64,000 bases of DNA from Antitrichia curtipendula. Lineage: Eukaryota > Streptophyta > Bryopsida > Hypnales > Leucodontaceae. Position numbers and translations under genes: made by a program. The stretch spans positions 5,642,001 to 5,706,000 of the forward strand of contig OX579641.1 of assembly GCA_951230915.1 (NCBI GenBank). Direction: 5' to 3'. Positions within the stretch are counted from its first letter, which is position 1; each line of letters starts with the position of its first letter. This document shows, piece after piece, positions 4,918 to 63,101 of the stretch. The notes below the pieces were generated by a model. The model was given only the letters and a program-made list of their open reading frames with translations. It was not told the origin of the DNA and ran no database searches.

Positions 4918-5179
4918 ATATAAGTTGAACTGAATAGAATATTCATTTAGGAAAATTGTATTTGATTGACCTAGCCAAATTCTCTAATTTAGCCAATATT
5001 TACATGAAGAGAATGGGTGAAGAATGCATAAAGAATACTAGATGGAATTGTCAAATTGTTCTAAAAAAATATTAGGTTTGCCAACATTTAGATGAAATTT
5101 ATAAATTATAGATATTTTATGGATGAATTTATGTATCAATGATTTTATTCATTTTTTCTTTAGATAGTTACCTATTATC

Positions 5180-33698: not shown

Positions 33699-33856
33699 GT
33701 CGGTGCTGGTAGAAATTGAAGGAGGAACTCGGGAGTTCAGCTGCAACTCTGCAAGTCGAGCTCCGTGAGTGTAGCAGTGTCAGCTGAGATGGTTGTGGAA
33801 ACTGGAGGATGGCACTGAAATGGTTGCTGCTATTACAATTGCTTGGGCTGTGGGGG

Positions 33857-38590: not shown

Positions 38591-38760
38591 GTCGACTGGC
38601 TGCAACAATCGGTGCTGCTGGACTTGGAAGTCGGGAGCAGTTCTGGAATTCAAAGGAAGTTACGTCCTTTGCAAAGAGAGTATTGTGCACTGATGAGGTG
38701 GTTGTGGAAGCTGGAGGAAGGCACTGGAATGTTTGCTTGCAATTGTTTGAGTTGTGGGGG

Positions 38761-41533: not shown

Positions 41534-41565
41534 ATATATGCCATATTTAACTACTTCTGGACTTT
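41534..41565 (+). repeat. Left terminal inverted repeat
   Basis: Starts ATATATGCCATATTTAACTA and ends GGACTTT. One mismatch to the right end (T for C at the eleventh base). Followed by a small hairpin, GGACTTTCAATAGTCC. Confidence 0.85.
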
Positions 41566-41791
41566 CAATAGTCCAGAATTAAAGAGATGGTGAAATCCTC
41601 CGATCTACCTCAATTTCTGCACTCATAAGTCTTTTGGAGAGTGCTTCTTCGTGTGCTTGGAAATGCTAGAAAATTTGTAAATTACTGTTCCGTAGTTGAC
41701 TGTGTCAGAGTTCACGTGTCTGGATTGGGAGACCTGTGGACCAGGTTTCCATAATTTCAGCATCCCGTTTACAGCTCAGGTCCCCGAACCT

Positions 41792-42117
41792 ATCGAGAGA
41801 TCCCACGATGACAACTAGTTCAAGCAAATACGGCTCCGAGCCCTATATTAATACCTCACTCACCGTTCTGTTTGAAACGAATGCATCGTGAGATCCCCTG
41901 ACAAGGTTGTCGAATATGTGGCAGCTTCAGTGACAATCTTTGTGTCGAAGCGCTACAGTTTGATTCATGTGCTGTAGACAGTGCAATTCATAGATACATT
42001 AATGGAAGAAAACTTGAAATTCACTGGAACTCCCAAACATCACTTCAGAATTATCAAACAAGCACTTCCTCTCGGGAAGAAGGAGACCATTTTTATCTAA
42101 GCAGGAGATCCCCCGAT
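41792..42117. repeat. Dispersed palindrome, left end group
   Basis: Copies at 41792-41809 and 41885-41902 and a half copy near 42100-42117, each a variant of ATCGTGRGATCYCACGAT. They lie between the left terminal repeat and the transposase-like gene, in sequence with no other feature. Confidence 0.75.
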
Positions 42118-42708
42118 GGAGTGCTAACACAAGAAACATTGTCATTTCACACTACATCCAGTGGAATGACAGGACTGTAGACAAGTGAGTCACAAGTGCT
42201 CAGACATTCAGCATACATCTGTAGACTGATGAATATCGGCTACTGTACTATTCCATCTGAGGTATTTCAGTTTGTGTGGAGAAAATCGGGGTTCTATCAC
42301 TACTGAAATACATCCAATCTCTGATGTCCACGTAATTCTAAATATGCAAAACCCAGTCGACTGGAATTCCAACACGGACTGAAAGGGTAAAAAAATAAAT
42401 GCGTATTCAGACTAATCTTTGTGCATGTATAATCCGAACACTGTATTTGTCATTGATAAAAACATGAACCACTTCCATTTCAGCAGAGGAAAGAAAAACA
42501 GCCCGCACTTCACATATCAGGTGACTGCCCGTGTTTCACACGCATAATGAACACCATAAACGAATTCATATATTCATCAAGATTTATGATGCTAATACAT
42601 GTCACATAAAAACAACACTGAGAGGTTCATCGTCTAACAGTCGAACTCAAACAGGGTAGTGTACATAGAAAACCTAACTTTCGACTAAGCTACCTCAACG
42701 TGGAAAGC
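42118..42708. other. Spacer inside the large element
   Basis: No gene and no palindrome copy seen here; it lies 3' of the minus-strand gene and may contain its end signals. Confidence 0.35.
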
Positions 42709-42847
42709 CTCGTGGGATCTCACGATTTCCGCAGCGACCTGAACAATGCATCGTGAGATCACATGATGGCCGCGACAACCCCCGCAATGCATCGTGAGAT
42801 ATCACAATAGGCGCGCTACTCCACCGTATGTCGGGAGATCTCACGAT
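42709..42847. repeat. Four palindromes in a regular 41-bp array
   Basis: Copies start at 42709, 42750, 42791 and 42830, spaced 41, 41 and 39 bases. Three of the gaps share AATGCATCG-like or GCGC-rich sequence, so this is a short tandem array built on the palindrome. It ends 30 bases before the stop of the transposase-like gene. Confidence 0.85.
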
Positions 42848-42876
42848 AGATTACTGTTCTCGGACAAGGCGCTTGA

Positions 42877-45800
42877 TCACGGGTCCAACACGTTTGCCCG
42901 ATTCAAATTTGCCAAGGCAGCCTCCCTACTCTTCTTAAGAATGGTCCTCGATTTCGGATCCACTATTTTCGACCAATTCACATACGCCACAGCAGCTGCG
43001 TCAACCCAGGTAGGGGCTGAATCTTCAACAACCCATTTACCGTACCAGCAATTCCGGTACCTCAACTCCAGCGTACTTTCGGAGTTATCGGGTCGCCAAT
43101 ACTGAATCAAAAACTTTCCGTAATTTGCATCTCCTTCCAGTCTGCATACAGTAGACAATGCTCTTCCTTGCCAAACAGCACATGTTTCCGAGACTTCCAG
43201 CCTAAGAAGTACCCATGAGCCCGGTCGTATGTCCAGCCACGGATTGAATCTTTCCATTGGCGCTTCATTTGCGGGGCCGCAATAAGGTTCGGGTTCCTCT
43301 TCTTCCTCCGGAATCACATCCATGGGATTTCCTTGGCGAGGGACTCCATTCTGCGCTACCCTCCAATCATACTGTGGCCAGAAGCCTTCCACCAACTCCG
43401 GAGGACACTCAGGTAGTGGCTCCTTCAGCTCATCCAGTACGCACTTCCAGTATTCCACGTAAGGGCCAAATGCAGCTACAAATCCCTCGCATTTTGACAT
43501 TCCTTGTTGCCAGTACTGAATGTACTTCTTGAGTCCCACCAAAATGAAACCCTTGTTCACGATAGCTTTCCGCGCCATTTCCCTTGCCTTCTCTTGATTT
43601 CCACCCGCGACGTGAACCTCGTTGCCCCACATGGGCTTAAATGGAACAGGCTTCGGACAACCGTGAGGGAGCATGGGGCGACCATTTTCATCTCTCCTCC
43701 AAATGCGTTGAGAAGGTTTATTAGACGGAAGCCACTTTGAATCAACCGCTGACTCCTTGTAATTCATGACGGGGACCCCATCAGTGTCCACGTAGAACTT
43801 GAACAGGTGCATCTCCCCCAATCCAATTAATCTTTCGGAGCCACCGGTCTGGTAACCCTCCACGAACGCCTTGAAATCCCCCACCTCCTGTATAAACTCC
43901 GGCAGAAATGACAATTCTTGGGACTGCATGAAGGCTTTCATGAGGTCAGCGACGACGAAAGTGTTCTTGGTCTTGAGCGCCTTCGAAAGGTGGCTGAAAT
44001 AGGCATTGATATCCTCGTGAGTATGTTCGACTAGTAGAAACCCGACCTGAATTTCCTTGAAGACACCTCGTGCAGTGAGCAACGACAAGAACGCCATTAG
44101 GTATTTGTTCTTGTTATCCTTAGCAGAGTTGTCGAGTTGAAGATATAACTTTTCAGGAAGGGGGGTCCTACCGACCCGAGCTCCTGGTTCAGTGAGAGTC
44201 AGGCTGTCCATACATCTCGACTTTCCTCTGAGCAGTGCCTCAAACATTGGATTCGCCGGAGGGTATGGAAAGAGGTCGCCTGCCTCTCGAATCGGTGGAC
44301 CCTCCAGTCGGCGCAACAACCTCGCCAAAGACGAAATGGTGAAGTTGGAGTCTGCCGGCCAACACGATGGAGCATAATGGACGTACGCACCGTCACCATG
44401 ACCATGAGCTACCATTCCTGTGACGCTCATGGGAAGCTGCCCCAAACCCGCCGTGGCCTTTGTCGTCACCCGCATTCTAGGGAGAGCCGTCTTCGCCGTA
44501 TCCATCTTGTCGTGAATTATACATAAAATTCTCCGTGGATCTTGTTTGGATTCCTCACGCCAAGAGGCATACAGACGACGGCAAGACGCTTGGTGATTCA
44601 GATGATGAGCCCTCTGATTCATAAACTCCACGTATTGGGGGCTTCCTTTCAGGGACTTCAGGATGTATTGCTGTAGATCGTCGCATAGGGTACATTTTGC
44701 GAACGAACTCCCAACAGGCTTAATGTGGACGTTGTTGAAGTGGTCCTTCTTAATTCTACTAATGGTCGACTGGCTAACGGGCGGCAGACCGTAGTCGGCA
44801 TTCAACTGGAAAAATAGAACGACTAAGCTTCAGAAACAGTACGAGCAAAAAGAGCCAGCGAACGAAAATGACAAATACTATTCCAGAGAAACGATCGTGA
44901 CATCCCACGATCGTTGATCCAGTCGAGGGATCTCACGATCACTAACTGCATTACTCAGAATCAATGGGTTTACCTCGTTAGCATCCGCTTGGACTCGTTT
45001 CCAGTTTCTGCCTGCAAGCAGATATTTAAGAGTGTCCACTCGGCCATTACCGATACTGCGCATTTGGTGGGGCATTTGATCAGCGTTCTCGTCAATAATG
45101 GCTTTCATAGTCCCTGTAACCTGAACAGTCTGAGTCCTCGGTCGCTTAATCCCTTTGTTTCCGTGCGTCCCCAAATTCACGCCGTCGTTGTACATCTCGA
45201 TGTAAGTGTGGTAGGTCGACTTTGGGATTCCGTGAATTGTGTACCACGCCGTACCACAAACTTCCACTCCCTGTAATGTGATGAATTTTCGCTTCCAATC
45301 CCTATTCATTTCGTGGAGCTGCCCTCCCACTGCAATCCCATATTCGTGGCGGTCCTCGAACGACTTCAAGTAGTATTTCTGCCTAAGCAACAGCGTCAAC
45401 TCCTGGTTAAAATGCTGACAACACAGATGTTTGCAACACTTTTGCGAGCTCACTTTGCGGATCTCTTCGTCTGCCGTTTTCCGGTCTAATTGTGATTCTT
45501 TCAGCTTTATACTGGGTTTACGGACTACAAAGCGATATGGTGCTTTCATTCTACCTCCGAGATAAGCGAGAGGGTCGTCTGTATCTGGATTGGCGGCAAA
45601 ATGATCCACGGTCTCCTTCAACAACCGACCGCTTGGAAACCAGCACTCCGACAATGGCCACCTCTCGTGCGACATTATGGCTTCCTCGTTACCCACAAAA
45701 ACATCGAGGACTAATACACCCACGAAGCCCTCACCAAGTGTTTCATTTTGGAAATGATCCTCCGCCCTCCAGCAAATGATACGGCCCGACGAAACGTGGA

Positions 45801-46254
45801 GTCCCCATTCGTCTTTCCGATGAACATCAAGTGCAAACCAGGCTCCTTGGCGTATATATGGACAGGGATCCATTGGGGGATCCCTCGACGCTCTTACAAC
45901 GTCGGCGATTCTCCACAGCACGACACATCCCTGAACATCATACAATGTTCTATAACTCCTGTGTTGGGGGTTAAATCTTAAATTCTGGAACGCTAACTTT
46001 ATGGAATGAGGCTGCACCAGAATATAAATCCAGGGCTCTACAGGTAGAGGCACATCCAGCCACTGGCCCTGAGGACGAACCTCCTTAACAATCCCAGATC
46101 CGACTTCACCGTATCCAGGAACAAACAGCTTAACCCAATCACCGATCAAGAACGATGGAGATTCATCGCTGGACTCCTGTGATCCACTTCCCACATGTTC
46201 ACCGCGTACATATGGAACAATCGCATCAGCAGCGGACTCACTAAATGAATCCAT
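42877..46254 (-). CDS. DUF7869-like DDE transposase-type protein, two exons
   Basis: Exon 1 is 46254-44974 (427 codons from an ATG), exon 2 is 44805-42877. The 168-base GT-AG intron between them keeps phase 0, giving 1,069 intact codons. Residues 35-205 and about 950-1030 look like Tudor/SH3-type barrels (GDWVKLFV and PGSWVLLRL starts). A Cys/His cluster (KCCKHLCCQH) lies at 272-281, a VCGTAWYTIHGIP segment near 332 and GTHGNKG at 362-368. Exon 2 has a CxxC at 465/468 and then HDKMDTAKTALP (Asp526, Asp529), LQLDNSAKDNKN (Asp652) and HTHEDINAYF (His688, Glu691, Asp692). This order is typical of the DUF7869 family as I know it and is compatible with an RNase H-like DDE centre. The role as transposase of the surrounding element is inference. 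Confidence 0.7.
44894..44949. repeat. Two palindromes inside the transposase intron
   Basis: Copies at 44894-44911 (ATCGTGACATCCCACGAT) and 44932-44949 (GTCGAGGGATCTCACGAT). Both are inside the 168-base intron 44806-44973, so they take up about a fifth of it. Confidence 0.8.
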
Positions 46255-46297
46255 TCTCGGTGATTTATGGCGAAGAGATCTCGAAGATTTGTTGAAC

Positions 46298-47457
46298 CTA
46301 CAAAAATCATGAACTATACCAGGAGTTAGTTTAGTTAAGAGATCGGCGTTCCCTTCGTAGCCAAGGAACCTGACGACAATGTCTTCAGTTCCGGCTGACT
46401 ACTAAGGAAACACTTGCAGTACGATATACAAGATACCTAGTCAATCATCAACAATAGTGTCAGGGAATCTAAGGATAGCAGGTCTTGGCAAATGAATAGA
46501 GTACCCCGACAAGGTACGCAAGAACATCTGATGTCCACAAGCGATCGTGAGATCACACGATGCCCATGAAGGGAGCACTAAGCGAGTACGTACATTGAGG
46601 AGTAGGCCACTGGAACCAGACAGAAAGGTCCACACACCAAGGATCAATGCGTCGTTGGAACCCACAACACACAGGTCGTTGGGTCACCCTTTTCAGAGAT
46701 CGTGTCATCCCACGATCCTCCTACCGAATTACGCCTGGAGGGAGTGAAATGCTAATAAACAAGTAAACGAACATAATTATGCAGGCAGATCCCAATCTCA
46801 TATCTAATCGGTCGTGTGATCCCACGACCAAAACATTCTAGGATCCACGAAACAGACATCCCGAGATCTGCTCATTAGAAAGAGAGACAGCTGGATCCCT
46901 TGGTCGTCGGGAACCAAAGAAGACATAGTCCCGAGTTAACGAGACCCAAAACCAAATTTGGTGTAGTGAATCGTTGCATCCTACGAAACCAAGATCGTGA
47001 GATCCCACGATACTACGATCCTGTGATCCTCCGATTTCTGGGTCGCTGATTTCTTCCATTCAGAGATCAACGGGAGTCACTAAACTTCAGAATCACCAAT
47101 TGTGGGATATCACGATCCTGTTTGATACGTACGCGTACTACTCTATCGTATATCACCGTATCTAGACTTTGTCCTCAACATACGACGGCACTGTGGCTGT
47201 ATTTACAGGCACATTAAGCTCTGTCTTCTGTCGTCTCCAAGTGAACCTCCATGTCACCAGAGCGTGGTGATCGCTTCACTAGGTGAGTTTATCCTAAGTA
47301 AATCTATTGCTCGGAGGAACCACCCGTAGTCGGACTCTTCTGCACTCTGAATCTACACGCGCTTGAAGCGTTTCACGAAATTGCAGTGGCATGCATTCGA
47401 CTGATGAAACACTGAGGCTCGAAATTCCACTGTAGTTGATAGGAATGCATTGCTTAC
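46298..47457 (-). other. Probable 5' leader intron of the transposase-like gene
   Basis: On the minus strand CACGAG|GTAAGC marks a donor with its first intron base at 47457, and TTTTGTAG|GTTC an acceptor with its last base at 46298. The joined leader has a stop codon before the ATG at 46254, so it is untranslated. Six palindrome copies lie inside. Splice sites are read from consensus only. Confidence 0.5.
46544..47116. repeat. Palindrome group in the leader intron
   Basis: Copies at 46544-46561, 46699-46716, 46811-46828, 46994-47011, 47018-47035 and 47099-47116. Variation falls mostly at the two bases on each side of the central GATC or ATAT, while the outer ATCGTG and CACGAT are most constant. 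Confidence 0.8.
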
Positions 47458-48240
47458 CTCGTGAATAACGGCCCGGTCAAAGCATCGTCCGCCTCCACTC
47501 CAATCTCGTCGCCTACACCGGTAGACACCGACTCCACTCCCCCGCAGCGTGCTCCACTTGTTCACGTGTGCAAGCGAAAAGGAGAAGCTGAAGGTTCGTT
47601 TCGGGTTATAAGACACTTGCACTGGAATTCAAGAGCTGTGGATTCCCGCCGTGAGTTTTCAAATTTTCAAGCGTTCTTTTTTTTCAAATGTTGGTTGGAT
47701 GCGTTCTAGATTGCCGAGCCGCAATCAAGACGTGGAGTACGTGCGGTTTTACACTTTGGAAGTGGAATGAACTCTTGAATTCCGCGCTGCTCCGACTACA
47801 AGGAGGGAGGGCGTGAGGCTCTTGAGTTTGTGAATGGAAATTCGCAGCTCCAGTGTTCCCTGCATTCCGGATCTTCACTGACATTCTGAAATTCGCCGCA
47901 TTCAAGGATGGTATCCCTGCACGGTTTCAGAGGAGTCAATGATGCTTCGAGCAAAGAGAATTCGGTCTTCCAGACTTTCATTTCCCGGATTTCACACGCG
48001 TCCAGGTCAATACTTGGACGAGTAACTCTGTGTCCCTCCACCTCAAGGCGATCTAATGACCTGAATACCAACATAACAGTTCCAGAATTGTTGTGCCCTA
48101 GTCTGTTCCGTGCCTAATGTGCTCTGTAGGTAGGGGACTTTTTTGGTTCAATCTGTCAGTCGATTTAGGCGAGGAGCGGAGGTTTGTTTTCCTTAGCCCC
48201 AGACCGCCTGCGGTTTTAGGGTGTGTACCAGTGATCCCAG
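47458..48240 (-). other. Putative leader exon and promoter side of the transposase-like gene
   Basis: GC-richer than the centre of the element. A minus-strand leader exon likely ends at 47458. Small frames exist on both strands, none recognisable. No clear TATA box was assigned. Confidence 0.35.
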
Positions 48241-48613
48241 AACTGCTTTACTGAATTTAGTGAAACATGTTACCTAGGTTATTAGGATTTAGTGCAATAT
48301 GCTACCTCCTCAAGACAAATGGGACTCAATTTTGGCTACCTTGAGGGTGAGTAGTATTAGAAAAAATAAAGAAGATAGGATTTTGCAAGTTTTAAAGAAT
48401 CATTGGGAGTACTATAATACAAAACAACCAAAATAGCTGCTAATTTCAATATAGAGGAAGTTGCACATTGCCTACCAAATTCTATTGTTTGTTGCAATCT
48501 TGACTAAAATCTAATTTTTTCAAGGATTTTTTTTAATACACTTTTAGCTCCTGAAGTTTTTCAGTAGCAATGGAGCAAAATTTAGCCACTTCTATGATCA
48601 TTAGTCTGTACTG

Positions 48614-49667
48614 GAATCCCTAAATGGCCAAGGCACCAGTTAGGTTTAGGTGGTTTCCGAAGAAGTGTTGAGGTGGCAACTTACAAGAAAATGCTCTAGC
48701 CAAATATTTTAGTATTCAGCTAAATTTTATATGGAGTTATGTTTTCATCCACATTTTTCGATGAGTGTCCTTTATACATGACATTTTCATTCAAAATTTT
48801 AAAAAAATTAGAGCAATTTGGCATTGTCATCTAAATTTTCTTCAAATTTCTTCATATACTAGTAGGCTCGATGCAACCCATTTATTTTTGAGGGATGGAG
48901 CTACACAAGGCCAAAAAATAGGGTTTACGGATTAGGATTTTTAGGATTTTAGGGTTTAGGATTTTAAGGGTTTAGGATTTAGGATGTAGGGTGCAAGGCC
49001 CCCGTAGGTGGTGTCTAAGAAACTTTTTTTGGAACCCTTTCTTAAGATGCAAATGAATTTCACTAAAAGTCAAACCGTACCAAATCCCTATTTTTAGTAG
49101 AAAATATTATTGGAAGATTCTTTTTTAAGTCTAACCGTAAACCCGAAAACCAATTTTGGGGCATGAATGATTATGATTTTTCCTATTCAAAATTTGTGCA
49201 AAGGGTTCCATTGCAATCTTGACTTCTTGTATTGTTCAAGGGTCTTGGAAATTTGCCTCAAATACTCTAGATTTTAATGAAAAAATCATTGACACTAGGA
49301 ATTCTTTATAAAAATTGGTAGTGTAGATTTTGAGATGTCATAAAATGATTGGGCTTATATATTTGATTAGGCCCTTCAACCTCATATTTTGGGGGTCTTG
49401 AATGTTTTAGATTTGGCATGCAGAAGGAGAATGAAAGTTTTTCATAGTTTTAACACCCTAATGATCAAACATTACAATCTTTCAATTGATACAAATTATG
49501 ATGTTGTTGTGTTTCCTTTTCCTATGTGATATTTAACATGTGTAGTTTGAATTTGTATGGTTACAATACCCCAAAATTTGATTCAACTTATCAAAAGGTT
49601 GGCCTCTAGTTCAATATAGAGTAAATTCAAAGAGGCAAAAAACAGGCCTTTGGTATTTAGAGGTTAA
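48614..49667. mobile_element. Nested TTAA-family element
   Basis: Left end CCCTAAATGGCCAAGGCACC and reversed right end TTAACCTCTAAATACCAAAG, the termini of the TTAACCCCTAAA family. The inside near 49,430-49,560 is related to 11,400-11,530 and, reversed, to 63,700-63,850. It is a relic without coding capacity, inserted into the centre of the large element. Confidence 0.6.
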
Positions 49668-50268
49668 CGTTTCCAATGAAATTCTAGAGCATTGGAATCC
49701 AAAACAAAAACAAATTCTCTAAAAAAAGAGGTAACTATTGAACCCCTCATTTTTTATTAAATGAAGGATTAATTTTCACCTGAATCCCCTCATTTGCAAA
49801 AAGAATTCACAATAATTTCAGGTTCACAGGTGTTCATACTTGATATTTTATATTTGAATGACTGAAGTCTTAAGGTCTGGGTTCCACGGTTATAAGGGCG
49901 ATTGTCCGCGGTTTAAGGACGCAAAGTACACACTTGTACGGTTGAAGTTTAACATGTGAAGAGTCATGATTTTTGGGTTTAAGGTTTAGCATTCAGGAGG
50001 GCATTGTTCATGACTAATAATGCTCAGGCTTAGGATTAATTCATTTCAGGGTCATGGTTATTGGTTTAAAGTTTAGGTGTATACTTCATGGTTTAGGGTG
50101 GTCAATTCTAGAGTCTTTGATTTTAGATAGATGATTTTCGGATTACCGGTTCCAGAACTTTTTGTTCAAGTTTTCTAAATTCATGCTTAATGGATTTTGA
50201 GATTTGTCACAAATGATTTAGAAATTATCACTAAGTAAACTTGTATTTGGACTACATCGTTCTTCTAG
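49668..50268. other. AT-rich centre, no gene
   Basis: Contains GGTTTAGGGTTTAGG-like degenerate runs (also at 48,920-48,990) that recall plant telomere repeats but are too irregular to call. No gene. Confidence 0.35.
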
Positions 50269-50806
50269 GTTACGTGGTCCATTTTGGGGAAAAGTTGCAT
50301 GGATTGTTTCCGCTCATGAAGATTAACTTCATGAGCGGAGTATTTACAACTTCTACATTTTTTTTTTCATCCCAACGTGTACTATTTTGAATAGGACTTA
50401 TGGAATGAGGTTTCTTTGAACTGCAGGACGGAAGTCCCATTTCTTAGTTACGTGGTCCATTTTGGGGAAAAGTTGCATGGATTGTTTCCGCTCATGAAGA
50501 TTAACTTCATGAGCGGAGTATTTACAACTTCTACATTTTTTTTTTCATCCCAACGTGTACTATTTTGAATAGGACTTATGGAATGAGGTTTCTTTGAACC
50601 GCAGGACGGGAGTCCCATTTCTTAGTTACGTGGTCCATTTTGGGGAAAAGTTGCATGGATTGTTTCCGCTCATGAATCTTAACTTCATGAGCAGAGTATT
50701 TACAACTTCAATCTACATTTTTTTTTTTTCATCCCAACATGTATTATTTTGAATAGGACTTATGGAATGAGGTTTCTTTGAACCGCAAGACGCCGGGAGT
50801 AACATT
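50269..50806. repeat. Three 178-bp tandem repeats with an internal hairpin
   Basis: Copies start at 50269, 50447 and 50625, 178 bases apart, the first two almost identical. Each holds CCGCTCATGAAG and CTTCATGAGCGG around ATTAA, a perfect 12-bp stem in the first two and slightly broken in the third. A fourth, partial copy lies at about 51,177-51,262. Confidence 0.9.
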
Positions 50807-50879
50807 ATATTCATTAGTTTGGGAGATTGAGGACCTCCCAAAATAATCATGTTGATCTCAACTTAAATCAACAACTCGC

Positions 50880-51270
50880 ATTTAAAATGAGAGGTTTGAT
50901 GTAAATTGACATAAAACCTTTCAATATTAGGTCAAATCTTGAAAGATTTTCTATCCGTTTAACTTGAATCGACTTAAATTGACATAAGACCTTTCAATTT
51001 TAGGTCAAATCTGAAAGGTTTTCTATCAATTTAACTCGAATCGACTTAAATTGACAAGAAAACCTTTCCATTTTAGCTGAATTGATATAATTCTTTTCGT
51101 TGAGTTTTTTTTAAATAACCTCTCATTTCAATGGAAAACTCCCATTTGAATGTGTCGTCGTTTTGAGTCCCATTTTTTAGTTACGTGATCCATTTTGGAA
51201 AAAGGTGCATGGATTATTTCTGCTCATGAATCTTAACTTCATGAGCGGAGTATTACAACTTCTACCTTTT
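50880..51270. repeat. Short direct repeat and partial fourth 178-bp unit
   Basis: Two to three copies of a 60-70-base unit with ACCTTTCAATTTTAGGTCAA and TCGACTTAAATTGACA, followed by a partial unit with GTTACGTGATCCATTTTGG and the CTCATGAA...TTCATGAG stem. Confidence 0.7.
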
Positions 51271-52189
51271 ACTTAAAAACTTAAGTTAATTATCTATACA
51301 ATTTGAAGACAGTATTTTTGTCTAATTTGAGTCAGATTTTTAGAAGTTCAATATTGCCTTCCAATTTGGTGTTTCAGTGAAAATCCTCCGCTGTCCCTCT
51401 GCCAATCCAGTTTGAATGCAAGCGCTTTACTTTGCTAAAGCCTCAGAATTGGAAGCCACCGGAAATTTATCATTGATTTAGGATGCAACTGAAGTTAGGC
51501 CACAATATACCCAGAAAATGCAGGACCTAAATCCAGTAGCGAGAAAAATGAATTTGATCATGAAATTGGGGTCTTCACGCTTTGCTATTCATATTTCTAA
51601 TTAATAGCAATAAATATATTGAGGGAGGTGACTGTCTCAAATTTTTTTGTCTTCCAATATAATGAAAGCATCTTGCAGTTTCAGTTATCTAATAATTTGC
51701 ACTCCGTTCTCATAGTCGCTCGCGGAGTTATAGTATTAAAACATGGTCAACTTGCGGTGCTTAAAAACAAAAATTTCAATTTTGGGGCATAAAAAATGTT
51801 TGTTTGAAAGGTTCTATGATGGGACTAAGGACTTTGGACTTCATGTTTTCCTGGATCTAACATCGCTAAACCCTCTTATACTCTTATATTTTTAGTATCA
51901 CCCTATGATTGAAGGTTTTATATATGATTTGAATCATTACATGAATTTTATTAGAATCGATTTCTATAAGAAAACACTTTATTTTTTCATTTGAGAGTTT
52001 GTTTAATTTTTGGGGCATTTAGACTTTCATATTTGAAGCCTATAACTTACTAATAGAGGAGTTCAAGACATGCAAGTAACTATGACTATGAGTATAAATG
52101 GAAAAGAGAGTAACTTAATTCTCATTTATGGTAAGTTCATGGTAACTTCATTTTCACTTATGGTAAGTTAATATTCACTTATGACTTCG
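51271..52189. other. AT-rich centre, no gene
   Basis: No supported gene, repeat pair or palindrome copy. Confidence 0.35.
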
Positions 52190-52818
52190 TTTAGGGTCAT
52201 GAGTGATCCGAAACCGTAGATTTCTCAGTAATGAGGAGGAGGGCTGACAGTGATTTCCTCCGCCGTCTCTCCCCTGACAGCGCCACGTCGACAGGGGGAG
52301 CTGGGTTTCCCTTCTCCAGTGCACACGATATCGAGTGCTCTCCCCCTTCACCTGATGTCGTGTGCAGCTGGAGAGTTCCCTTTCGTATTCCCTGCAAAGC
52401 TTGTGTTCCGCTGCGGAGTGTGCGCGAACTTGACCGATTCATGAGTGTTTGACGCCGCGATTTTGATTGTGCTTGACGGGGCGAGTTTGATTGTGCTTGA
52501 CGCCGCGAGTTTGATTGTGTTTGACGCCGCGAGTGTCCAGGAGTTGTGGGCGGAGCGTTGAAGGCGGTTGCGCGTGGGGCGTCGTCATTTACGAAGGGGA
52601 GGGAGGCGATCAAATTCCGTTTCCAGTCTGTGGGTGGGAGCTATCGCTGGTGGAGACGAGCGCGTGAGATTCCTCGTTTTGGCGACCCAGCATTTGCTGG
52701 TGGAGACGGACGTGCAAGGTGGTGGAAGTTGGCGGCCAAGCATTTGCCGAAGGAGACGTTTCGTGAGCTGCGCACCGGATTTGTTGTGGCGAATGTGTGC
52801 GCGAACTTGACTCCAGAG
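52190..52818 (+). other. Putative 5' leader exon of the right-arm gene with 24-bp repeats
   Basis: GC-rich block ending at a donor CCAGAG|GTGAGT (52818/52819). At about 52449-52534 a 24-base unit (TTGACGCCGCGAGTTTGATT plus four more bases) is repeated about 3.5 times in exact register. Spliced to 53346 the frame leading to the ATG at 53384 has a stop codon, so the exon is read as untranslated. A 138-codon frame on the other strand is a by-product of the repeats. Confidence 0.45.
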
Positions 52819-53345
52819 GTGAGTTTCCTGCACATTCTTCCGCCGATGTTCATTGTTTGAGTTTTTTATTTCCATTTGCACAGACTGGCTTCATTTCTAG
52901 AGGGAGAGAACTACCGATTCAAGTGCGCGGCGTTAGACAGTCTTCATAATTATACTTGAGCTCCTAATTATCCTTTCCACTTTCCAGCTCGCATCCCTTC
53001 TCGACTGAAATCCCCCATTTACATTATTATTTTGAATGTTCTCAGTTCTCAAATGATGCATGTAGTAAGACAGTCATGGCATTGCTTGTTTTGAAATCTA
53101 TACTAGGCATGTTCTGCATTAATTTCCTAGTATCGTGACTTTTCGGTTTCAATTGGCCTGAATGTGTCGTCGTTGAAGGTTGCAATTTCTAGTTTTGTGC
53201 TGAATGTGATCAGGCTTGAATTATGGCAGTAAGATAGTCCAATGCATCTGGAAAATATTGTTTTGCTGTCGAAACTAGTCTTCACATTCTGTTGTACTGA
53301 TTGGATCGTATGACTTTTTTTTGGCATCCGTCGATTTTTGTACAG

Positions 53346-53436
53346 TTGTATTGCATTCCGGACTTGGGCAAGCTGTCGGTACGATGGCAGGGACTTCAGC
53401 TCTGCGTACAGGAGGTCAAGTAGATTGGAACGCCTC
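53346..53436 (+). other. Start exon of the right-arm gene
   Basis: Acceptor TTTTTGTACAG at 53345, ATG at 53384, donor GCCTC|GTAAGT after 53436. It encodes 17 residues (MAGTSALRTGGQVDWNA) plus two bases that join the next exon in phase to give Ser. Confidence 0.55.
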
Positions 53437-53675
53437 GTAAGTTTCTAAATGCAACCCTCATTTCCTTTTCGTGCATGCAATGCAAAGCTTTAGAACAGTG
53501 CAATTAAAACTAGGGTGAAGGCTGTTGTTGTTGTCCTGTGATTTAGGGTACTCTGCACTCTCTTTACTCTTTGTTACAAACCCTGTCGAGAGTTACGGTA
53601 GTGCAAATCAATAGAACAATACACGGTAATAAGTATCCCACCTTATTACCGTGCTTTGAACCCCTAAACCCGTGC

Positions 53676-54303
53676 ATCGTGAGATATCACGATAGGTTAC
53701 AATTTCAAGATATTAGAGGACTGTCCATCGTGGGATCCCACGATTAAGGCTCATGGAAGAGCCTAATTATGTCCCGAGGACCGTTCTCGCTGGAGTAGAA
53801 CACGCCACATCGTGGGATCCCCCGATGAAATGTCGTAGAGACTCTAAGGAAATGCAAACCAAACCTCAAGTGCAAATGAGGAAGGAACGAAATCCGACAT
53901 CGTGGGACATCACGATGCATCATTGTGTGCCGCCTCATCGAACACAGACGAATAGGTGAATAGGCCTCAAAGATTACTCATCGTGGGATCTCACGATCGA
54001 TGTAGACAATACCCTGTGAAAATCATTAATAGAAGGCGGCCGTGAAATATTCCGAAAGCATGACCGACATACTTCAGAGGTCATCGTGATTTCCTACGAT
54101 GTCTATGCCATCATGATATCCTACGATCTAGAAGCTCTCGTGATAGCCTTACACTCCACCGTCCAGTTAGTTAGGCGATATCCCGTTCTATATTGTCCCA
54201 AAACAAGGAGTAGGCGTCATAACAACTGCTAACTAGAATGAATCACAGATGTCTTACGTCTCAAGGAAATGTCATAAAATCAACAATCGTGATATCCCAC
54301 GAT
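53676..54303. repeat. Eight palindromes in intron 1 of the right-arm gene
   Basis: Copies at 53676, 53727, 53809, 53899, 53980, 54083, 54110 and 54286 (18 bases each). 53727-53744 is a perfect ATCGTGGGATCCCACGAT. This is the densest group outside the 41-bp array and lies wholly in the 961-base intron 53437-54397. Confidence 0.85.
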
Positions 54304-54397
54304 CGTGCTTGTAATACAAGCATATAGAGAGAATTAGCATTGCAAGACTATTGATTTTCCATCTCCCTCACTAACATCACTGTCTACAATGCTGCAG

Positions 54398-55721
54398 AGA
54401 ACATCAATTCGATGACGGTCCGGAAGATTGTTCACCGAGGAAGCTTAGTCACTTTGTCGACTCCTGGATCCGCGACTTCAAGTACAAAGGTCCACATAAA
54501 CCTGGAGCTATATTCCGATGCGACCAAAGCGTTACGGAATGGGGCCTGGTCTGGAAGGTTGACAATGACGGATCAGCTTTGATTCTTCCCTCTATTTTGA
54601 ACAACGGCAAGGGACATGGAACAGGCGGTCTCAAGGTCGTGGAAGTGCAAGGACTTGACAACAAAACAGCGCTTCTTGTCATAGAAGAGAAGGTACCCCT
54701 ATCCATTGAGTCCATTACCTACGGCTTCATCCTCGACTACGAGACGATGAGCATGGGACTCTGTGAGACCATGATAGCCAAGGCGCATTTGATGTGCAAG
54801 GACCCCGCGAAGCCTTCTTGGAAGCCTCAAGAAATGAAGAACCAATGGGATATCATTTAGGAAGATTTGGCTGAATCGAGTGCTGCCCCCAAGGCAGTCA
54901 AAGAGGATGCTCCCAAACCATCACCGGCCAAGAAGACCGAGAAGAGGAAGTCAGTGGTTGGAGCTCCAGGCGATGACGATGATGTCGGACAGGGTTCAGC
55001 CGGAAAGAGGAAGAAAGCTGAGACCCCGCTTTTGCTGCACGAGGCTGTCGCTCTAGGGGAAGCAGAGATCAAGAAGATGCGACCGGAGCAAATGATGGCA
55101 ATGAAGACATTGTACGAGAAATCCTTTAGTGGCTTCTACAGATGGGGAAGAAAAGCCCTTCGTGACAAAAATGGGGAGCTGATCCGCGTGAACATGAAGT
55201 GCCTGCACGAGGCATCAAAAGCACTGCTCGTATATAGGGCCATCGATCTTGAACGGCTGGACAGAGTCACGAGAAAGGCACGTATCACGCCAGAGTATGA
55301 CTCAGAGAGCAGAGTGATTATAGTCCTCCCACTTAAAGTTGGCCCATACGGCCCAAATGGCGTGGTGACGCACTACGAGAAGACACCACCGAAACCAGAA
55401 ATCTTTGAAGACCCGAAGACGCAATACTTCATTATTGGGGGACAGCACACTGTCAAGGCCTTCAAGAACCTGATTGATGCTAATGAAATTCCCGAGGCCG
55501 ACAAAAAGCTCGCGTCTACGTTCTACATCATTCCAGTCTGGACACCCAAGGTCAACCACGGAGACCTACTACACTTCTCGCGGGCACTGAACCAGAATCT
55601 CGCTGGTGAATAGAAGGAGATGAATTTCACCAAGCAACTCTTGTACGCAAGAACGAAATGGCGCAGTATGGGAAGTCTGCAGCCCGCCATAATGGGGAGA
55701 ACTCACACGCAAGAGTATAAT
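54398..55721 (+). pseudogene. Exon 2: unknown domain plus ParB/DGQH-like segment
   Basis: Frame is open from the acceptor GCTGCAG at 54397 to the donor TATAAT|GTAAGA except for TAG at 54858 and 55611. The first 150 codons (FVDSWIRDFKYKG, EWGLVWKVDNDG, TYGFILDYETMSMG) are not recognised. After a Lys/Pro/Asp-rich linker with a KRKK nuclear-signal-like run comes a helical part and then QYFIIGGQHTVKAFKNL (about 55,420-55,470). This resembles the GxHR core of ParB/sulfiredoxin-fold and DGQH-R proteins, with Thr where Arg is usual. The resemblance is by motif only. Confidence 0.45.
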
Positions 55722-55779
55722 GTAAGATTCCAATTCATACTTATGTTGACTCTGCATCTCAATGGAACACTTAGCAGTC

Positions 55780-56152
55780 ATCGTGGGATCCCATGATCGA
55801 CTTGTGCTTACAAACATAAGCAGACGAAATTGTAATGAAATCACTGTGGGTTCCACCATAGCTCCGGCAAAGCATTCTCAAATCCTCGGTGGACAAAAAT
55901 AAGGTCTGTGTGATATGGTTTCTGGCTTCATTTCTAGGAATTGTATTGTGGATTCCTGTTCTTGACTTTTCGGATCAACTATCGGATTATCAATCGTGTG
56001 ATCCCACGATGTCCATGTTTGTGTTCTACTTCCATTTCCTTCACAATGCCGTCATTGTAATATCCTCTGATGGTTTTCTAGTCTATCCCACACAACTGAC
56101 GCTATGCCGATTTGTTTTACTGTAACTATCGATGATCGTGGGATCTTACGAC
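55780..56152. repeat. Three palindromes in intron 2
   Basis: Copies at 55780-55797, 55993-56010 and 56135-56152, all inside the 493-base intron 55722-56214. Confidence 0.8.
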
Positions 56153-56214
56153 TTCGTATCCCATTCATGGTGTAAACCTCATCATTGGATACTCACTTTG
56201 ACTCTGTTGTGCAG

Positions 56215-57575
56215 GCATTTCATCCATGCTTGGTGACAATCTTTGCGGGTGTGAAGACTGTTGATAACTCGGAACTGCGAATACCCCTGCTCTTCCTGGA
56301 GGACGACGTCGACGTAAAGAGGTGGATCGACATTGAGGAGAAATTCATGAAAGGATATCTTCCCGATGGAACGGGCCTGGTCGATGTATGCGGGAAGCAG
56401 GAGCGAAAACCCCTAACGCAGAACGACTTCAAGACGCTCTATGGACTTTGACCGGAGGACATAAACTACCTTGCGGATCAAGTGGAAGCCAACGTCCTCT
56501 GTGTAAAGAGTTCGAGGATGACAAGTCAGAAGAGTGGCCGGCAGAATTTCAAAATCATCCTCTCAATACCGCTGGTGCAAGATTGAGGCTGGTGAGGGCC
56601 ATGAAGAACGAGCTCTTGGCACACTATACAAATCAACTGTTGCCCATGAGGAAGATGGAGTATGTACCATATCCGGAATCCACTTGGGAGAACTTTGCGA
56701 CCGAGAAGGACATCGGAAGCGACGAATTAGATTTGTGGGTGAACAAGGCCATGGAAGTCCCTGCTGGGAAGAAGTGGTTGGAAGGCAGGACAAAGGGATT
56801 GAACAAGACGTTCGACCCAAAGGACCTCCCCGAATTCGTCATTAATATGTGGGAGTCGTTCTTCAAGTCCGCTGTGGAGGATGAAGTGACACAGGCGCAT
56901 GTACATGATTTCTCGAAGCACTATCTGTGCAAAATGATGGATGAGAGAACCTGGAATATCAACAAAACTTTGTCGGCCCCATACGTCAAGGCATGGCGGG
57001 GAAAGAAGAAGCGTCACCTTTACATCTGGTTCATGTTTGAGGAAGCATCCTATAGATCCCGTACGAAGATGCTGGAGTTTGGAAAACTGAACAGACTCTT
57101 CAATGCTCTGGAGTTCTACGACCCTAAGGACAAGACTGTCTCACCACAGGCTGGCGCCGTCCTCATCACAGATGCCGAGGGATTCCACACTATTGCGAGC
57201 TATCTCGAGAAAAGAGATGAGGAGATGAGAGCAAGGTTGTGGGACTGGCACGTTGTGACTTACATGGCTGGGCCGGACGACTTCTTCCCTATGTCACCGG
57301 CCGGGGAGGGGTTCAACGTCTTTCTCGTCTTCATCTTCGAGCACATCCCTCACGGAACCAAGCACGATTCCTTCAAAGCCTACTTCCCTGGACTAACTGA
57401 TCTGAAGCAGACTTACAGATCGCAAGACATGAAGGATGTCCACCCGTATTGGCGACGACCGCATGTGTCGTACCTGAAGATCAAGACGGCGGAGGAGATA
57501 TTTAAAGGACTCGCATACACCGACCTTGTCCTCGTGAATGTCAACGGCGGTCCCGAGTTCACCTACCTGGGACTG
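56215..57575 (+). pseudogene. Exon 3: large unrecognised domain
   Basis: Opens after TTGTGCAG and reads AFHPCLVTIFAGVKT onward in phase. TGA at 56449 is followed in the same frame by PEDINYLADQVEANVLCV, so the stop looks secondary. From about 56,510 the coding frame is another one and stays open for over 1 kb, with WRGKKKRHLYIWFMFEEASY, LITDAEGFHTIASYLEKRDE and SYLKIKTAEEIFKGLAY. It ends at TACCTGGGACTG|GTAAGG. I do not recognise a family. Confidence 0.5.
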
Positions 57576-57675
57576 GTAAGGTCTTGGGCTCCACAATCTT
57601 CCTTTCATTTCGAGCAACACAATGTTTTGGTCCTGCCAGTTCCAGGCACACTAACAACTGATTGGTGTATTTCAG

Positions 57676-57966
57676 AATTTAGGAGGTGTTCAAGTGCTGG
57701 AGGTAGTGCATTCCGCTGAAGCTGTGACGGCAAGTGAGGTCTTCGCCAAACAGATTTGGGACGACAAGGAAGCACCCGCGGCAGCTCCTCCAGTTCCAGA
57801 AGGCACCGGCGAGGCCGAGGATCAACCGGACATGGAGGCTGATAATGACGAAATCAACCCATCCGATCCTCTAGATTCCCATGACGAGCATGAGGACAAT
57901 ATAGTGAATGAGGTCATCGACGAATCCCATGAACGTACAGGAACAAGGTCGGTTGATCACAATGAG
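57676..57966 (+). pseudogene. Exon 4: acidic linker of the right-arm gene
   Basis: A 100-base intron (57576-57675) joins CTG to AAT in phase 0, giving YLGLNLGGVQVLEVV. Most of the exon is Asp, Glu and Pro-rich and probably disordered. Donor AATGAG|GTTAGT. Confidence 0.55.
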
Positions 57967-57991
57967 GTTAGTGTGCGTTAATTGCTGAACC

Positions 57992-58009
57992 ATCGTGAGA
58001 TCCCCTGAT
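57992..58009. repeat. Palindrome in intron 4
   Basis: ATCGTGAGATCCCCTGAT inside the 125-base intron 57967-58091. Confidence 0.8.
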
Positions 58010-58091
58010 CTTGGGAAGCTCAAATTAGTGATTTCTGGTGTTTGATTGGGATTCTAAATGTCCAAGTGATTTGTTTTTGGATTCGACGCAG

Positions 58092-59820
58092 GAGGAAGAT
58101 GCGCCTTCAAGAACTCCCGCAGGACAGTCGGAGGACGTAAATGTCACTGACCCCAACGTTCAGTCGCCTCCAATGGGTCCAAGCAATATGGTGGAGCAAC
58201 AGGAGCATCATTCTGAACCGCCAGCACCAAGTTGGCTGGGAGATGTAGCCAAGCAGCCACAGAAAGCTCCTCAGCCGGAAGGAGCTGGACAACAAGTGCA
58301 TTTCCTGTCCGACAGTTCAACAGGCGATGAGGTTACAAGGTCTCCGCTCGAGAACCCGAGGACATCCAAAAGGAAGACTGAAAGTAATCTGGCCAAGTAT
58401 CTTGGCTGTGGAAGAAAAACTGCTAGGAAGAAGGCTGTGACGCGACGACGGCAAGGTAGTGCAGCCACAGTGCAGCCGCGGAAGGTGGTCAGTCCCAAAG
58501 CGAATCCGAACAGGGACGTCGCCGAGGCGGAACAAGATCCGCAGATGTCAACTGGGATTGTGAATCCCGAAGCATCACACGCGGCAGGCATACTTCTGAC
58601 ATGTGCTTGCCGGCCGTCAACTCTGGAGACTATCGATTTAGGCGTTCCCGACGAGGAGGTGCCGCAGACAGCTAGTGGCGATGGAGTTATCAGGAATGTG
58701 CCCGATGGGACAGAACCTACCCGAGGGATGAATCAGATGGAGTTCAGAAGAATTCCAGGTCCATCAGGGGATCCCACGATGAACACAAGGACTGTGTTGG
58801 ACATAGTGAAGGGTTTGGAAAACTCAGATGAAAGCACCGGCCGCCAATCAACTGAAGGGTGCCGAGATCTTACTCTTGGTGGAGACCTCCCGGGGATTGA
58901 CGCCAGCAGACTCGAGTTGGAGGTTCCCGCGACAGATGCCCCTGCACCAGGCTCTGGAAACCATGATAAGGGGGCTGGGGCGAGCACAAAGACATCGTCG
59001 GATCCCCTGATCGTCTAGGAAACGGAGGTCGTCATGGCGCAGGTTGATCAGGCAGCTGGCGAGGATATTGACGGACATCTCGTAGGGTTAGGAACTTCTA
59101 CATCGGGGGATATCACGATGGTCGCTTCGCAAGGTCTCCTGCTCACGGGAATAACGGTGGACGAACAGGAGGACACCCTCGTTGACTTGGTATCCATGAG
59201 TCCGAGATTCAGACCGAAGGTGACTGTGGATATTGCTTCTGTCGCCTCCACTGTTGCACTGGCGGTGTCAAGTGAAGTGGCTCTTGGAAACGGTGAGGGA
59301 ATTAACGAAGAAGTGTTGGAGGCCTTACCATATGAGGCCGCAGACATAATGAAATTGTGCGTCGTGGATGCGGTCAAATTACTTGCTGAATCTCCGAGTA
59401 ATGATTTTATTGCGTTCGATTTCATCGACCCTAAGGATCCTTTTCGAAAGACGAAACAGCATACGCAAGCCGTAAGGCGAGCGCACCGATTCCTATACAA
59501 ACCATTGTTTAATTGGGCATTTCAGAATGGGCCGCGTGCAGGACTGGAAGGAGGGGATCCAATGGATCAACTATTCAACGAGGAAGGCGATGAGGAAGAG
59601 CAAGAGAGCGACGACGACATGGAAGAGGGGAAGGGGCCAATTTTTGGCGACGATAGGGGGAAAGACGAAAATCGCGGCGACGAGAGGGGGAAAGGGCCAA
59701 TGGTTCAGGACGAGATAGGAAATCGGCAACGGGACGGTGATGAGGGCAAGAAAGCATTTCAGGGTGTCGACAAGAGCAAAGAAGGGCCTCCCCGAAAATA
59801 CATCCGACCCCGGATTCCAA
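58092..59820 (+). pseudogene. Exon 5: low-complexity region containing palindromes in frame
   Basis: Opens EEDAPSRTPAG. A basic patch (GRKTARKKAVTRRRQG) is followed by acidic and Ser/Pro-rich sequence, ending in Glu/Asp/Gly repeats with GDDRGKDENRGDERGKG. TAG at 59016 interrupts a frame that stays open on both sides. Palindrome copies at 58763, 58994 and 59102 lie within the frame and are translated as SGDPTM, SSDPLIV and SGDITM. Donor CCAA|GTAAGA in phase 1. Confidence 0.5.
58763..59119. repeat. Three palindromes inside coding sequence
   Basis: 58763-58780 (ATCAGGGGATCCCACGAT), 58994-59011 (ATCGTCGGATCCCCTGAT) and 59102-59119 (ATCGGGGGATATCACGAT). Each is 18 bases, so insertion of a whole copy keeps the reading frame. 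Confidence 0.75.
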
Positions 59821-59906
59821 GTAAGAAGTTAACCAATTTTTATAATGCTTATACTTGAGAACGGATTCTTAACTGGACTCTAACGCGCTGTTTGTCGGAT
59901 TTTCAG

Positions 59907-60573
59907 CAGGTTGTCGAGTCACCGAAGTCTCTCGTGAAGAAGTGCGGAAGCCGTTGAATAAGGTAGAACCGCGGCCGTATTTTGTGATCTTTGACCTGAA
60001 TGGAGTTCTAGTTCACAAGACTTTCGATGATCGTAATAGACGTCGCTATGCTGTGCGACCGAGTTGCCCACACTTCCTGGACTGGGTGCATAGGACTGTT
60101 AAGCTTGCATTCTGGAGCAGTATGACAAAACAGAATGCGACATTCGCTTTGAACCAGATGTTGTCCGGGGCGGTTGTGAAGCCGAAGGATGTGCCTGTTC
60201 TCACGTAGGAGGACTGCACACTCTCGTCTTACAGAGACCGTTGTCGTCCGGACAGGCCTTACTTTCTAAAGGATCTGTCACACACTTCGCCCGTAAGCTG
60301 AATTTGCCGACACAGGAAAATCTTCTACTCATCGATGACGACCCATTAAAGAACCTCCAAAACGACTGTCATAGCACCATCTTCCCCACAACTTGGGATG
60401 GTGACATGAGAGATGATGACTTAATGGGGAAGCTGTTTCCTTATCTCAACCAACTTTTCAAGTCACAAGAAGCTGTCCCAGCGTATGTTAGAGCCCACCC
60501 GCTTCTTCATGGTCAGAATCCGGAGATCCCGTTGACCAGACCGGGGTGTGACATATTGAAGGGTGTAATTTAG
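59907..60573 (+). pseudogene. Exon 6: FCP1/NIF-like HAD phosphatase domain
   Basis: Acceptor TTTTCAGCAG (two possible AG sites three bases apart, both in frame). Then RPYFVIFDLNGVLVHK, the HAD motif I region with the second Asp replaced by Asn, as in the plant LDLNGLL-type FCP1-like proteins. LAFWSSMTKQNA matches the motif II region, and NLLLIDDDPLKNL the DD motif. TAG at 60206 replaces a codon between VLT and ED, and an extra CA at 60278-60286 shifts RPYFLKDLSH into HFARKLNLP. With Asn in motif I even the intact domain might be a poor phosphatase. Confidence 0.65.
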
Positions 60574-62024
60574 ATGTGGTTATTCTTCTGCGTGGGACTG
60601 GATCCGGAGATATCACGATCTCATTCTATCATACTTCATTACTTACTGTTTAATACTCTTGAACTCACTGTGAATTTTGTAAATGCATTTTTTAAATACT
60701 TGACTTTCCCATTTATTAAGAGTCATTTTAAATTTTACTCATTTTGTAAGGCACATTGTAAATATTATTGTATGGTTATATGTGAAATCCATTTGTGAGT
60801 TAGAGTTATGATTTCAATTGGATAATTTTGACCTCCGTAATTATCGTCGTGCGTGAATATACTAAGATGTGTTTGTATAGTATGCAAGTTCATTTCCTGT
60901 CGTGAGATCTCACGATGGACTGTAGGGGCGATTTTAACTGACATGTGTTGTCGTACTCATTGTGCACAGCGTTAGTCTCTCTTCTTCTTTTTGTTAAATC
61001 GCATATCATGTTGCTGGGGATAATGAAATTGTATTTAACTCTGAAGTATTTTATTTCTGTTTCTCCGAAACAACTGATGGATCATTGCATTTAGAATGGT
61101 AAGCAAGATTGAAGCCATGACATATGGCATTAAGAAATTAAAGCAAGTAAAGAGATAAATGAAGAGAATGGAGCAAAGAGAAACATGAAGACTAAGTGAA
61201 GGAGCAGAGTGGGGGACCTACACTCCAGCAATCCCCATCACGTCTGAAGACGATGGTAAGGTCCCATCATGTCTCGCGAAGATGGGGGAATGCTGGGAAG
61301 CGGTATCTTCAGTAGATTTTATTAGTGTGGGCCTCATAATGTTCAGCTGCTTAGTTCAATCAGGAGATCGCACAATCTTCCCTCTTGCCGTCCAAGGAAT
61401 TTAATGGATCACCATGTACATGTCCGATAGTACAAACAGTTGTGCGTCTTTCGTCCCCGTAATGTCCTCCATTTTGGTTTATGTAATAGGGGATGATAGT
61501 TGTAGTTGTGCTTATGCAATTTGTTGGGCGTGTTCCTCCTATTGTCAACAAGACTTCACCCTAAAACCGTTGAAGTCTTGAGTTGAATTTGTTTACGTAA
61601 TCTTGTCTCTATGGCTTGATCGGGAGATCTCATGGTCGTGTGACTTTGCCTCTAATGGATACTCTGAACTTTGCAATTCTTTCGCTGCAATGTAATGCAG
61701 ATCCTTCTTTTCTTTTGTATTAATTTTTGGATCTCATATTATTTATGCCTAATTCCACTTTCTGTGTTTAAAAGAATCATTTATCTGCATGCCTCACTAG
61801 TCTTGCATTTTTGGACTGCAGTCATATTCTACACGTAATATTAACTTTCCTAAGCTCATCTGCAAATGAGATTTTCACTTGATGTTCTCTTTTCTAATCC
61901 GCCAGTTCTATTCGGTACGCGGTTCTGTAGTAATGCATATTCATCGTGATATCTCACGATCATTCGACGTCTTCTTCTGTCTTTACATCATTTCTGTGTG
62001 CTGAGATGTACTTGGTCTTTGCAG
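60574..62024. other. Spacer inside the large element with palindromes
   Basis: No gene is supported. AT-rich, with palindrome copies as listed separately. GTCTGAAGACGATGG and CGCGAAGATGGGGG near 61,235-61,290 form a short imperfect repeat. Confidence 0.4.
60602..61960. repeat. Palindrome group 3' of the right-arm gene
   Basis: Copies at 60602-60619, 60899-60916 (GTCGTGAGATCTCACGAT), 61359-61376, 61619-61636 and 61943-61960 (ATCGTGATATCTCACGAT). Two are well kept; the other three are worn on one side. Confidence 0.75.
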
Positions 62025-62501
62025 AAGGCGATGCTCCTTGTACTGACTGGGGATCTCTGCGTTAAGGGCGGTGTGGAGGATCTTCCACAGAATATACAAA
62101 TACGGGCTGGCTTCCACGATCTTCTGCGATATCTTGTTGAAGAAACTCACTATGGCTTGTGGGCGGCAGTGCAACCTTCGACATTAGCTGTTCTCCTTCG
62201 ACGTATTCTACCGCTGGAGATTCTTTCAAGGTTCCTTTTCTTTTCTGGATCCGACAATCCACGCAAGAACCAACTGTATCCGCGGCGTCATGCACTACTG
62301 AGGACTCTTTCAAGTAATCCTCGGACGCGTAGGGTACTCTTGAATGACACTGTCGTAATGCTTGTTCTCGATCCTCTGAATTGGGCACGTCCGCATTTAC
62401 TTCAACCGGCGTTGCATGTGAGGGATGATGTAGATACTTCAGATTGGCAATGTTCGCACGTTATAGGACCGCGCTTTGATTGGTCGTGGGCCCAGAAATA
62501 A
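62025..62501 (+). pseudogene. Second FCP1-like HAD exon, degenerate
   Basis: After the acceptor CTTTGCAG the frame reads KAMLLVLTGDLCVKGG and stays open to TAA at 62499. The layout follows plant FCP1-like proteins: motif I region LLVLTGDLC (catalytic Asp lost), HYGLWAAVQPSTLAVLLRRI, RFLFFSGSDN, VLLNDTVVMLVLDPLNW for the DD motif, also changed. No convincing upstream exon was found; an ATG at 62031 could start it. It may be a pseudo-enzyme or a fragment left from a duplication of exon 6. Confidence 0.5.
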
Positions 62502-62826
62502 GCATAGGTTCACATGGAACTAGTGGCACTTATTTGATTGGCACCCATTCGATTTGAATGGCACGTATTTGTTGCATCCAAATGATTATAAAGTCCTTTT
62601 CGTTTGTTATCACTTGGGTTGTGCACAGTCATTGCTTTGGCTGTTTTGTATTGTGTTTTCAAGTAGTGGGTTCGCCCTATTCGTTTCACCAAAAAGTAAA
62701 AGATGATTATGAATTGGTGAATCCACCTTCTGTATTTCACTGTTATTACAACTTATCAAATGTCCGTAACTGCATGAATGTTTTGCCTCATCACATCTTT
62801 CTTCTTGGGTAATGCTCTGCAAAATA

Positions 62827-63035
62827 TGTCGTGACATCTTTCGATCTGTAATGTCGCATATTTAAAGCCAACCCTAAATACGAATGCATCAATCTGTTCC
62901 TACACTTTAAATCCAAAAGGGATACAATTCCACTGCATCAACAATCTCCCGATGACTCCACATCCTAAGGCAGTTTAAGCCTCCATCGAAAGGCATTGCG
63001 GCCTCAGTTTACATAAGATCAGGATATCCTACGAT
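62827..63035. repeat. Palindrome group at the right end
   Basis: Copies at 62827-62844 (GTCGTGACATCTTTCGAT) and 63018-63035 (ATCAGGATATCCTACGAT). The last ends 35 bases before the right terminal repeat. Confidence 0.7.
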
Positions 63036-63069
63036 GCCCTAAACCTTCACAAAGTCCAGAATTCCCGCT

Positions 63070-63101
63070 AAAGTCCAGAAGTAGTTAAATGTGGCATATA
63101 T
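63070..63101 (-). repeat. Right terminal inverted repeat
   Basis: Read inward on the minus strand it starts ATATATGCCACATTTAACTA. AAAGTCCAGA occurs twice here (63051 and 63070), a small direct repeat at the tip. Confidence 0.85.

Follow-up and report, generated by a model that had tools for sequence, protein, structure and literature searches.

A giant cut-and-paste DNA transposon in the moss Antitrichia curtipendula with opposed genes for a predicted DUF7869 transposase and a ParB-like protein, and with dispersed GATC-centred palindromes

We analyzed a 64,000-nt stretch of the genome of the moss Antitrichia curtipendula (contig OX579641.1, positions 5,642,001 to 5,706,000, here called the window), in which a DNA transposon of 21,560 bp occupies positions 41538..63097. 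The element carries a gene for a predicted DUF7869 transposase on the minus strand, a ParB-like exon followed by further open regions on the plus strand, and a family of short palindromes. A sequence-only reading of the window had described 32-nt inverted repeats with one mismatch at its ends. We confirmed these repeats at 41534-41565 and 63070-63101 including the single mismatch, but comparison of many copies to set the boundary showed that the outer 4 bases, ATAT, which are themselves palindromic, are the target-site duplication (left copy 41534..41537, right copy 63098..63101). The true terminal inverted repeat is therefore 28 nt long (41538..41565 on the plus strand, 63070..63097 on the minus strand), and the element begins with ATGCC and ends with GGCAT, a boundary which fits 30 end pairs.

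These pairs were obtained by searching both ends against the 400-Mb genome that contains the window, where the best 40 of 587 left-end candidates and the best 40 of 198 right-end candidates were scored (one extra short right-end row was left out). For 30 of the 40 left ends, one of the scored right ends follows downstream in the same orientation at a distance of up to 100 kb; in 27 cases this distance is 17-26 kb, at which the control (wrong strand or wrong side) gave none. The remaining 10 left ends lacked such a partner among the 40 right ends that were scored. A perfect 4-bp duplication was observed in 29 of the 30 pairs, among them three spaced 35, 49 and 72 kb, while mismatched left/right combinations agreed in 10 of 870 cases; the sole pair without an identical duplication is C4:46160835. 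As three pairs have the same flanks, 28 pairs are independent and 27 of these show perfect duplications. Six further copies, selected because their ends are 21.2-21.8 kb apart, can be aligned with the element in the window over its whole length, with gaps not exceeding about 200 bases and mostly 96-98% identity. One copy, C10:23745671, is inserted within the DUF7869 gene of another transposon. Joining its flanks minus one TGGT restores an unbroken frame that is 75% identical to P0044 over 95 residues spanning the junction, and this reconstructed gene demonstrates a clean insertion with a 4-bp duplication. Two features of cut-and-paste transposons with terminal inverted repeats, paired ends at near-constant distance and a target duplication of fixed length, were both found. 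Taken together, the paired ends, the duplications, the colinear copies and the empty site strongly support a single, real and recently mobile giant cut-and-paste transposon. The sequence-only reading had proposed such a 21.6-kb element with matching ends and had named ends without a partner at about 21 kb, or ends that belong to two separate miniature elements (MITEs), as what would speak against it; neither was observed. The copy in the window is decayed. To our knowledge, land plants rarely contain DNA transposons of 21 kb that are nearly complete and were mobile in recent times.

Two observations on individual insertions may be added. The identical flanks are common to the copies C9:25241263, C10:23859380 and C6:34216440, pointing to a segmental duplication after insertion, and two of these three lie less than 0.5 Mb from a contig end. 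The copy at C6:28901148-28922495 has the target TTAA and is located within an apparent terminal repeat of a related element.

The minus-strand gene consists of a 5′ exon (44974..46398, start provisional), an intron (44830..44973) and a main exon (42877..44829). The boundary of the 5′ exon was taken from homologues and L084, and its open frame extends into the intron as far as 44878. For the main exon we found 80 homologues and a match to DUF7869 (PF25273, E=1.4e-41), with no other Pfam family at E≤0.1. Its structure model (predicted local distance difference test, pLDDT, 84.9) was assigned by fold comparison a predicted DDE/RNase-H core, followed by a C-terminal BAH/SH3-barrel-like domain; a PDB sequence search with the transposase returned one row at chance level. 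DUF7869 proteins of the mosses Physcomitrium patens and Ceratodon purpureus and of the liverwort Riccia sorocarpa have the same domain and conserved acidic motifs. In Pfam DUF7869 is listed as a domain of unknown function, and it was not named in any paper of the literature that we searched; the version in this element is a predicted transposase. It is highly likely that the protein would act as a DDE transposase which binds the 28-bp ends, releases the element from its site and inserts it at a target cut with a 4-bp stagger, and it would probably also mobilise miniature elements with the same ends. The same genome holds 1613 first-look DUF7869 candidates, the best 150 of which are all above the Pfam cut-off; several of these 150 have open frames of more than 1000 residues, and the candidates would represent other DUF7869 transposon families, some of them perhaps younger.

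On the plus strand the right arm carries a predicted ParB/sulfiredoxin-fold exon (54375..55720, 3′ end approximate), which contains two stop codons in the window copy. The ParB-like segment of the sequence-only reading is upheld by the predicted core fold but not by a Pfam ParB match, which we did not find, and a PDB search with the ParB-like alignment also gave no match. The adjoining exon R3 (56182..57719) is conserved and open over its full length in copies E and F, while it is shorter in the window. No known domain was found in it, and some motif resemblance notwithstanding we do not claim R3 as a decayed methyltransferase, as Pfam and PDB profile searches detected none. Further downstream follow the low-complexity open region R4-R5 (58032..59858), with a stop at 59016 found in the window copy only, and an NIF/FCP1-like phosphatase domain (59873..60573). 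The FCP1-like assignment gains support from another copy (L051:2779-3474), in which Pfam NIF was matched with E=4.7e-13; in the window the frame is broken and the fragment reaches E=0.033, whereas copies A, D and E are open across the span.

The 18-bp palindrome ATCGTGNGATCNCACGAT, which is centred on GATC, occurs at 34 sites with at most 3 mismatches in the 64-kb window, compared to 0.13 expected. Within the window all sites are confined to the element (41792-61960), so that the two-armed gene set with a private repeat family, as previously noted, is borne out. Fourteen sites form a left array (41792..47116) and 20 a right array (53676..61960), with zero sites in 47117-53675, and the first one is found 254 bp inside the left end. 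When exon limits were trimmed by homologue and splice evidence and the middle was excluded, a choice made post hoc after the sites had been seen, 31 of the 34 sites were located outside exons, which make up 8,783 of the remaining 15,001 bp (binomial 2e-9). Counting three chance-open intronic stretches as coding, 28 of 34 are outside (1e-6, with the coding fraction unchanged). Two palindromes lie in the transposase intron. The other six copies contain 33-39 sites each. A stricter 20-base form of the palindrome had no match in 56 loci. The GATC centre only suggests a methylation mark.

To evaluate which genes belong to the core of the element, we searched the same genome for homologues of the right-arm exons, using a length filter by which longer relatives may be missed. 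Among the best 90 of 505 ParB-like candidates, 44 show 88-100%, one 71% and 45 show 45-57% identity. The R3 search gave 86 rows (best 84 of 462 candidates scored), 35 of them at 50-52% identity; at least 8 of these 35 are next to one of the scored ParB-like rows, with the order of the two exons unchanged, and the same holds for one further pair at 67 and 71% identity. We then compared the window with a single divergent locus, C5:5047130, where a transposase is found on the strand opposite to a ParB-like gene at the expected distance. The transposase is 79.3% and 75.5% identical over 644 and 219 codons, with ratios of non-synonymous to synonymous change (dN/dS) of 0.10 and 0.09. For the ParB-like exon we obtained 50.8% identity over 443 codons (dN/dS 0.15, with dS near-saturated) and for R3 50.1% over 450 codons (dN/dS 0.31). 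In this pair both genes are under constraint, with more divergence in the right-arm gene than in the transposase. The divergent locus also contains 4 ATCGTGNGATCNCACGAT sites at the same threshold in 7.3 kb, compared to 0 in each of 60 random sequences, positioned in both corresponding introns and on the 3′ side of the transposase. Because the ParB-like gene is kept at about 50% identity beside the same kind of transposase in this one divergent locus, it is core and not cargo, and the description of the element as cargo-carrying does not hold for this gene.

Among the seven near-identical copies dN/dS is uninformative, with 0.33-1.34 for genes against 0.45-1.15 for non-coding and opposite-strand controls; R4 gave 1.20, the NIF-like segment 1.34 (counted in the broken frame of the window) and R5 0.58. 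Constraint looks weaker on the NIF/FCP1-like and R4 segments, and the chances that they are true accessory cargo are even. As a side observation, at least 21 of the divergent R3 rows (50-52%, mostly a 481-residue open frame with near-identical scores) are on contigs C25 to C299, which look small, and at least four are near the ends of C1, C2, C5 and C8; this recurrence suggests a subtelomeric or array-borne relative.

We conclude with good confidence that the locus harbors a giant cut-and-paste DNA transposon of a bryophyte with two opposed core genes. The transposase would bind the ends, excise the element and insert it with a 4-bp stagger, a chemistry that we infer, the duplications and the empty site being observed. 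The ParB-fold protein is a conserved partner. Bacterial ParB, Noc and KorB proteins act via palindromic sites, and the ParB partition proteins among them form a CTP (cytidine triphosphate)-dependent clamp on parS. The moss protein resembles them in its predicted core fold and in being encoded beside many dispersed palindromes; unlike them it lacks a Pfam ParB match and has a GGQHT motif, the likeness being one of predicted fold. Its most economical targets would be the dispersed GATC-centred palindromes, because these are present in many copies, lie outside exons and in the window are found only within the DNA that encodes the protein. It is a serious possibility, at slightly less than even chances, that the protein binds the palindromes and coats or marks its own element, which may aid expression of the element, help it to evade silencing or bring its far-apart ends together. 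More tentatively, and with the odds clearly against it, a ParB-type protein may load at the intron and spacer palindromes and spread over the 21-kb element to identify, protect or pair its own DNA; if true, a eukaryotic transposon would carry a parS-like array.

The palindromes could instead be binding sites of the transposase, with another role for the ParB-fold protein. Subterminal repeats bind the transposase in some plant transposons, the palindromes are present on both arms starting close to the left end, and the divergent locus has retained both the transposase and palindromes. On the other hand, the sites span 20 kb, occur also in introns and are not clustered at the ends, and they are absent from a miniature element that bears the same terminal repeats; we regard this explanation as rather unlikely, though by no means negligible. 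Still less probable is a reading in which the right-arm genes were captured as passengers and do nothing for the element. R4 and the NIF-like segment show no excess of silent changes among the near-identical copies and the NIF frame is broken in the window, but the adjacency of the ParB-like and R3 exons in at least 8 loci at about 50% identity, together with their constraint at C5:5047130, already disfavours this reading for these two exons, and the R5 ratio also speaks against it. The element links a ParB-fold protein to defined candidate sites in the DNA, and it suggests a transposase function for the DUF7869 domain. For tests it offers exact ends, numerous copies with paired ends and a short cassette with the terminal repeats. 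Giant algal transposons also have ParB-like accessory proteins, for which binding and marking of their own element has been proposed, and this role becomes directly testable.

Regarding its classification, the 4-bp target duplication of the element is that of the Sola superfamily. CACTA/EnSpm transposons have CACTA termini and a 3-bp duplication, which disagrees with the termini and duplications observed here, and piggyBac inserts at TTAA, found in 2 of the 30 left duplications. The piggyBac termini are given as CC..GG in the accessible part of PMC10045372, compared to ATGCC..GGCAT in the element. In Ectocarpus, a brown alga, giant KDZ, EnSpm and Sola-1 elements are described in the accessible part of PMC12477816. 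The 21.5-kb Sola1-1_Ec32 shares with the bryophyte element a size of about 21.5 kb and a ParB-like gene on the strand opposite to the transposase; in the alga this gene joins the ParB-like domain to an N4C/N6A DNA methyltransferase, for which none was detected in R3, and that part of the text makes no mention of a palindrome array for Sola1-1_Ec32. The statement that the element matches no superfamily was only partly right: by its 4-bp duplications, its size, its two opposed genes and the ParB-like partner it looks built on the plan of Sola1-1_Ec32. Giant algal KDZ and EnSpm elements resemble it in exceeding 10 kb and in having accessory genes and fixed inner repeats (PMC12477816, same part), but the moss transposase matches DUF7869 alone in Pfam. 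No ParB-bearing moss transposon was found in the literature searched, which included available parts of PMC6431247 and PMC12695648 and few subscription papers. A virus-derived or self-replicating, Polinton-like element, which the large size and several genes might suggest, is very improbable: no polymerase, capsid or protease family was detected among 10 window frames scanned against Pfam, and the Polinton/Maverick duplication is 6 bp (PMC10045372, same part) and not 4 bp. A search of viral contigs gave no relative.

The miniature element mentioned above is 238 bp long (4682..4919), has near-identical terminal repeats and an ATAA duplication (4678-4681 and 4920-4923), and contains zero ATCGTGNGATCNCACGAT palindromes at up to 3 mismatches; several AGATCTCC-like stretches were seen within it. 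Its existence lends some color to the idea that the giant element is in fact a pair of independent miniature elements, one at each end, that enclose unrelated DNA; this idea is refuted by the 27 of 40 partners at 17-26 kb, the 29 of 30 duplications and the six copies colinear throughout, and has practically no probability left. The palindrome-free middle region (47117..53675), AT-rich between about 48 and 52 kb, was found in every one of the six further copies, so that a recent nested insert is ruled out. A piece of it (49176-49565) resembles a dispersed repeat outside the element (63687-63997 and 11145-11306) and is probably an old insertion fixed in the family. The middle also contains tandem repeats of 178 bp (50263-50796) and 73 bp (50902-51076), where the other copies align with a shift.

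In the left part of the window we observed a GC-rich unit of about 660 bp seven times (1663-2331, 7185-7844, 12897-13565, 22572-23271, 27389-28085, 33032-33702 and 37933-38594) with about 88-96% identity and wider similarity around some of the units. Long palindromes are located at 20658-21230 (93% self-complementary) and 19603-19976 (81%).
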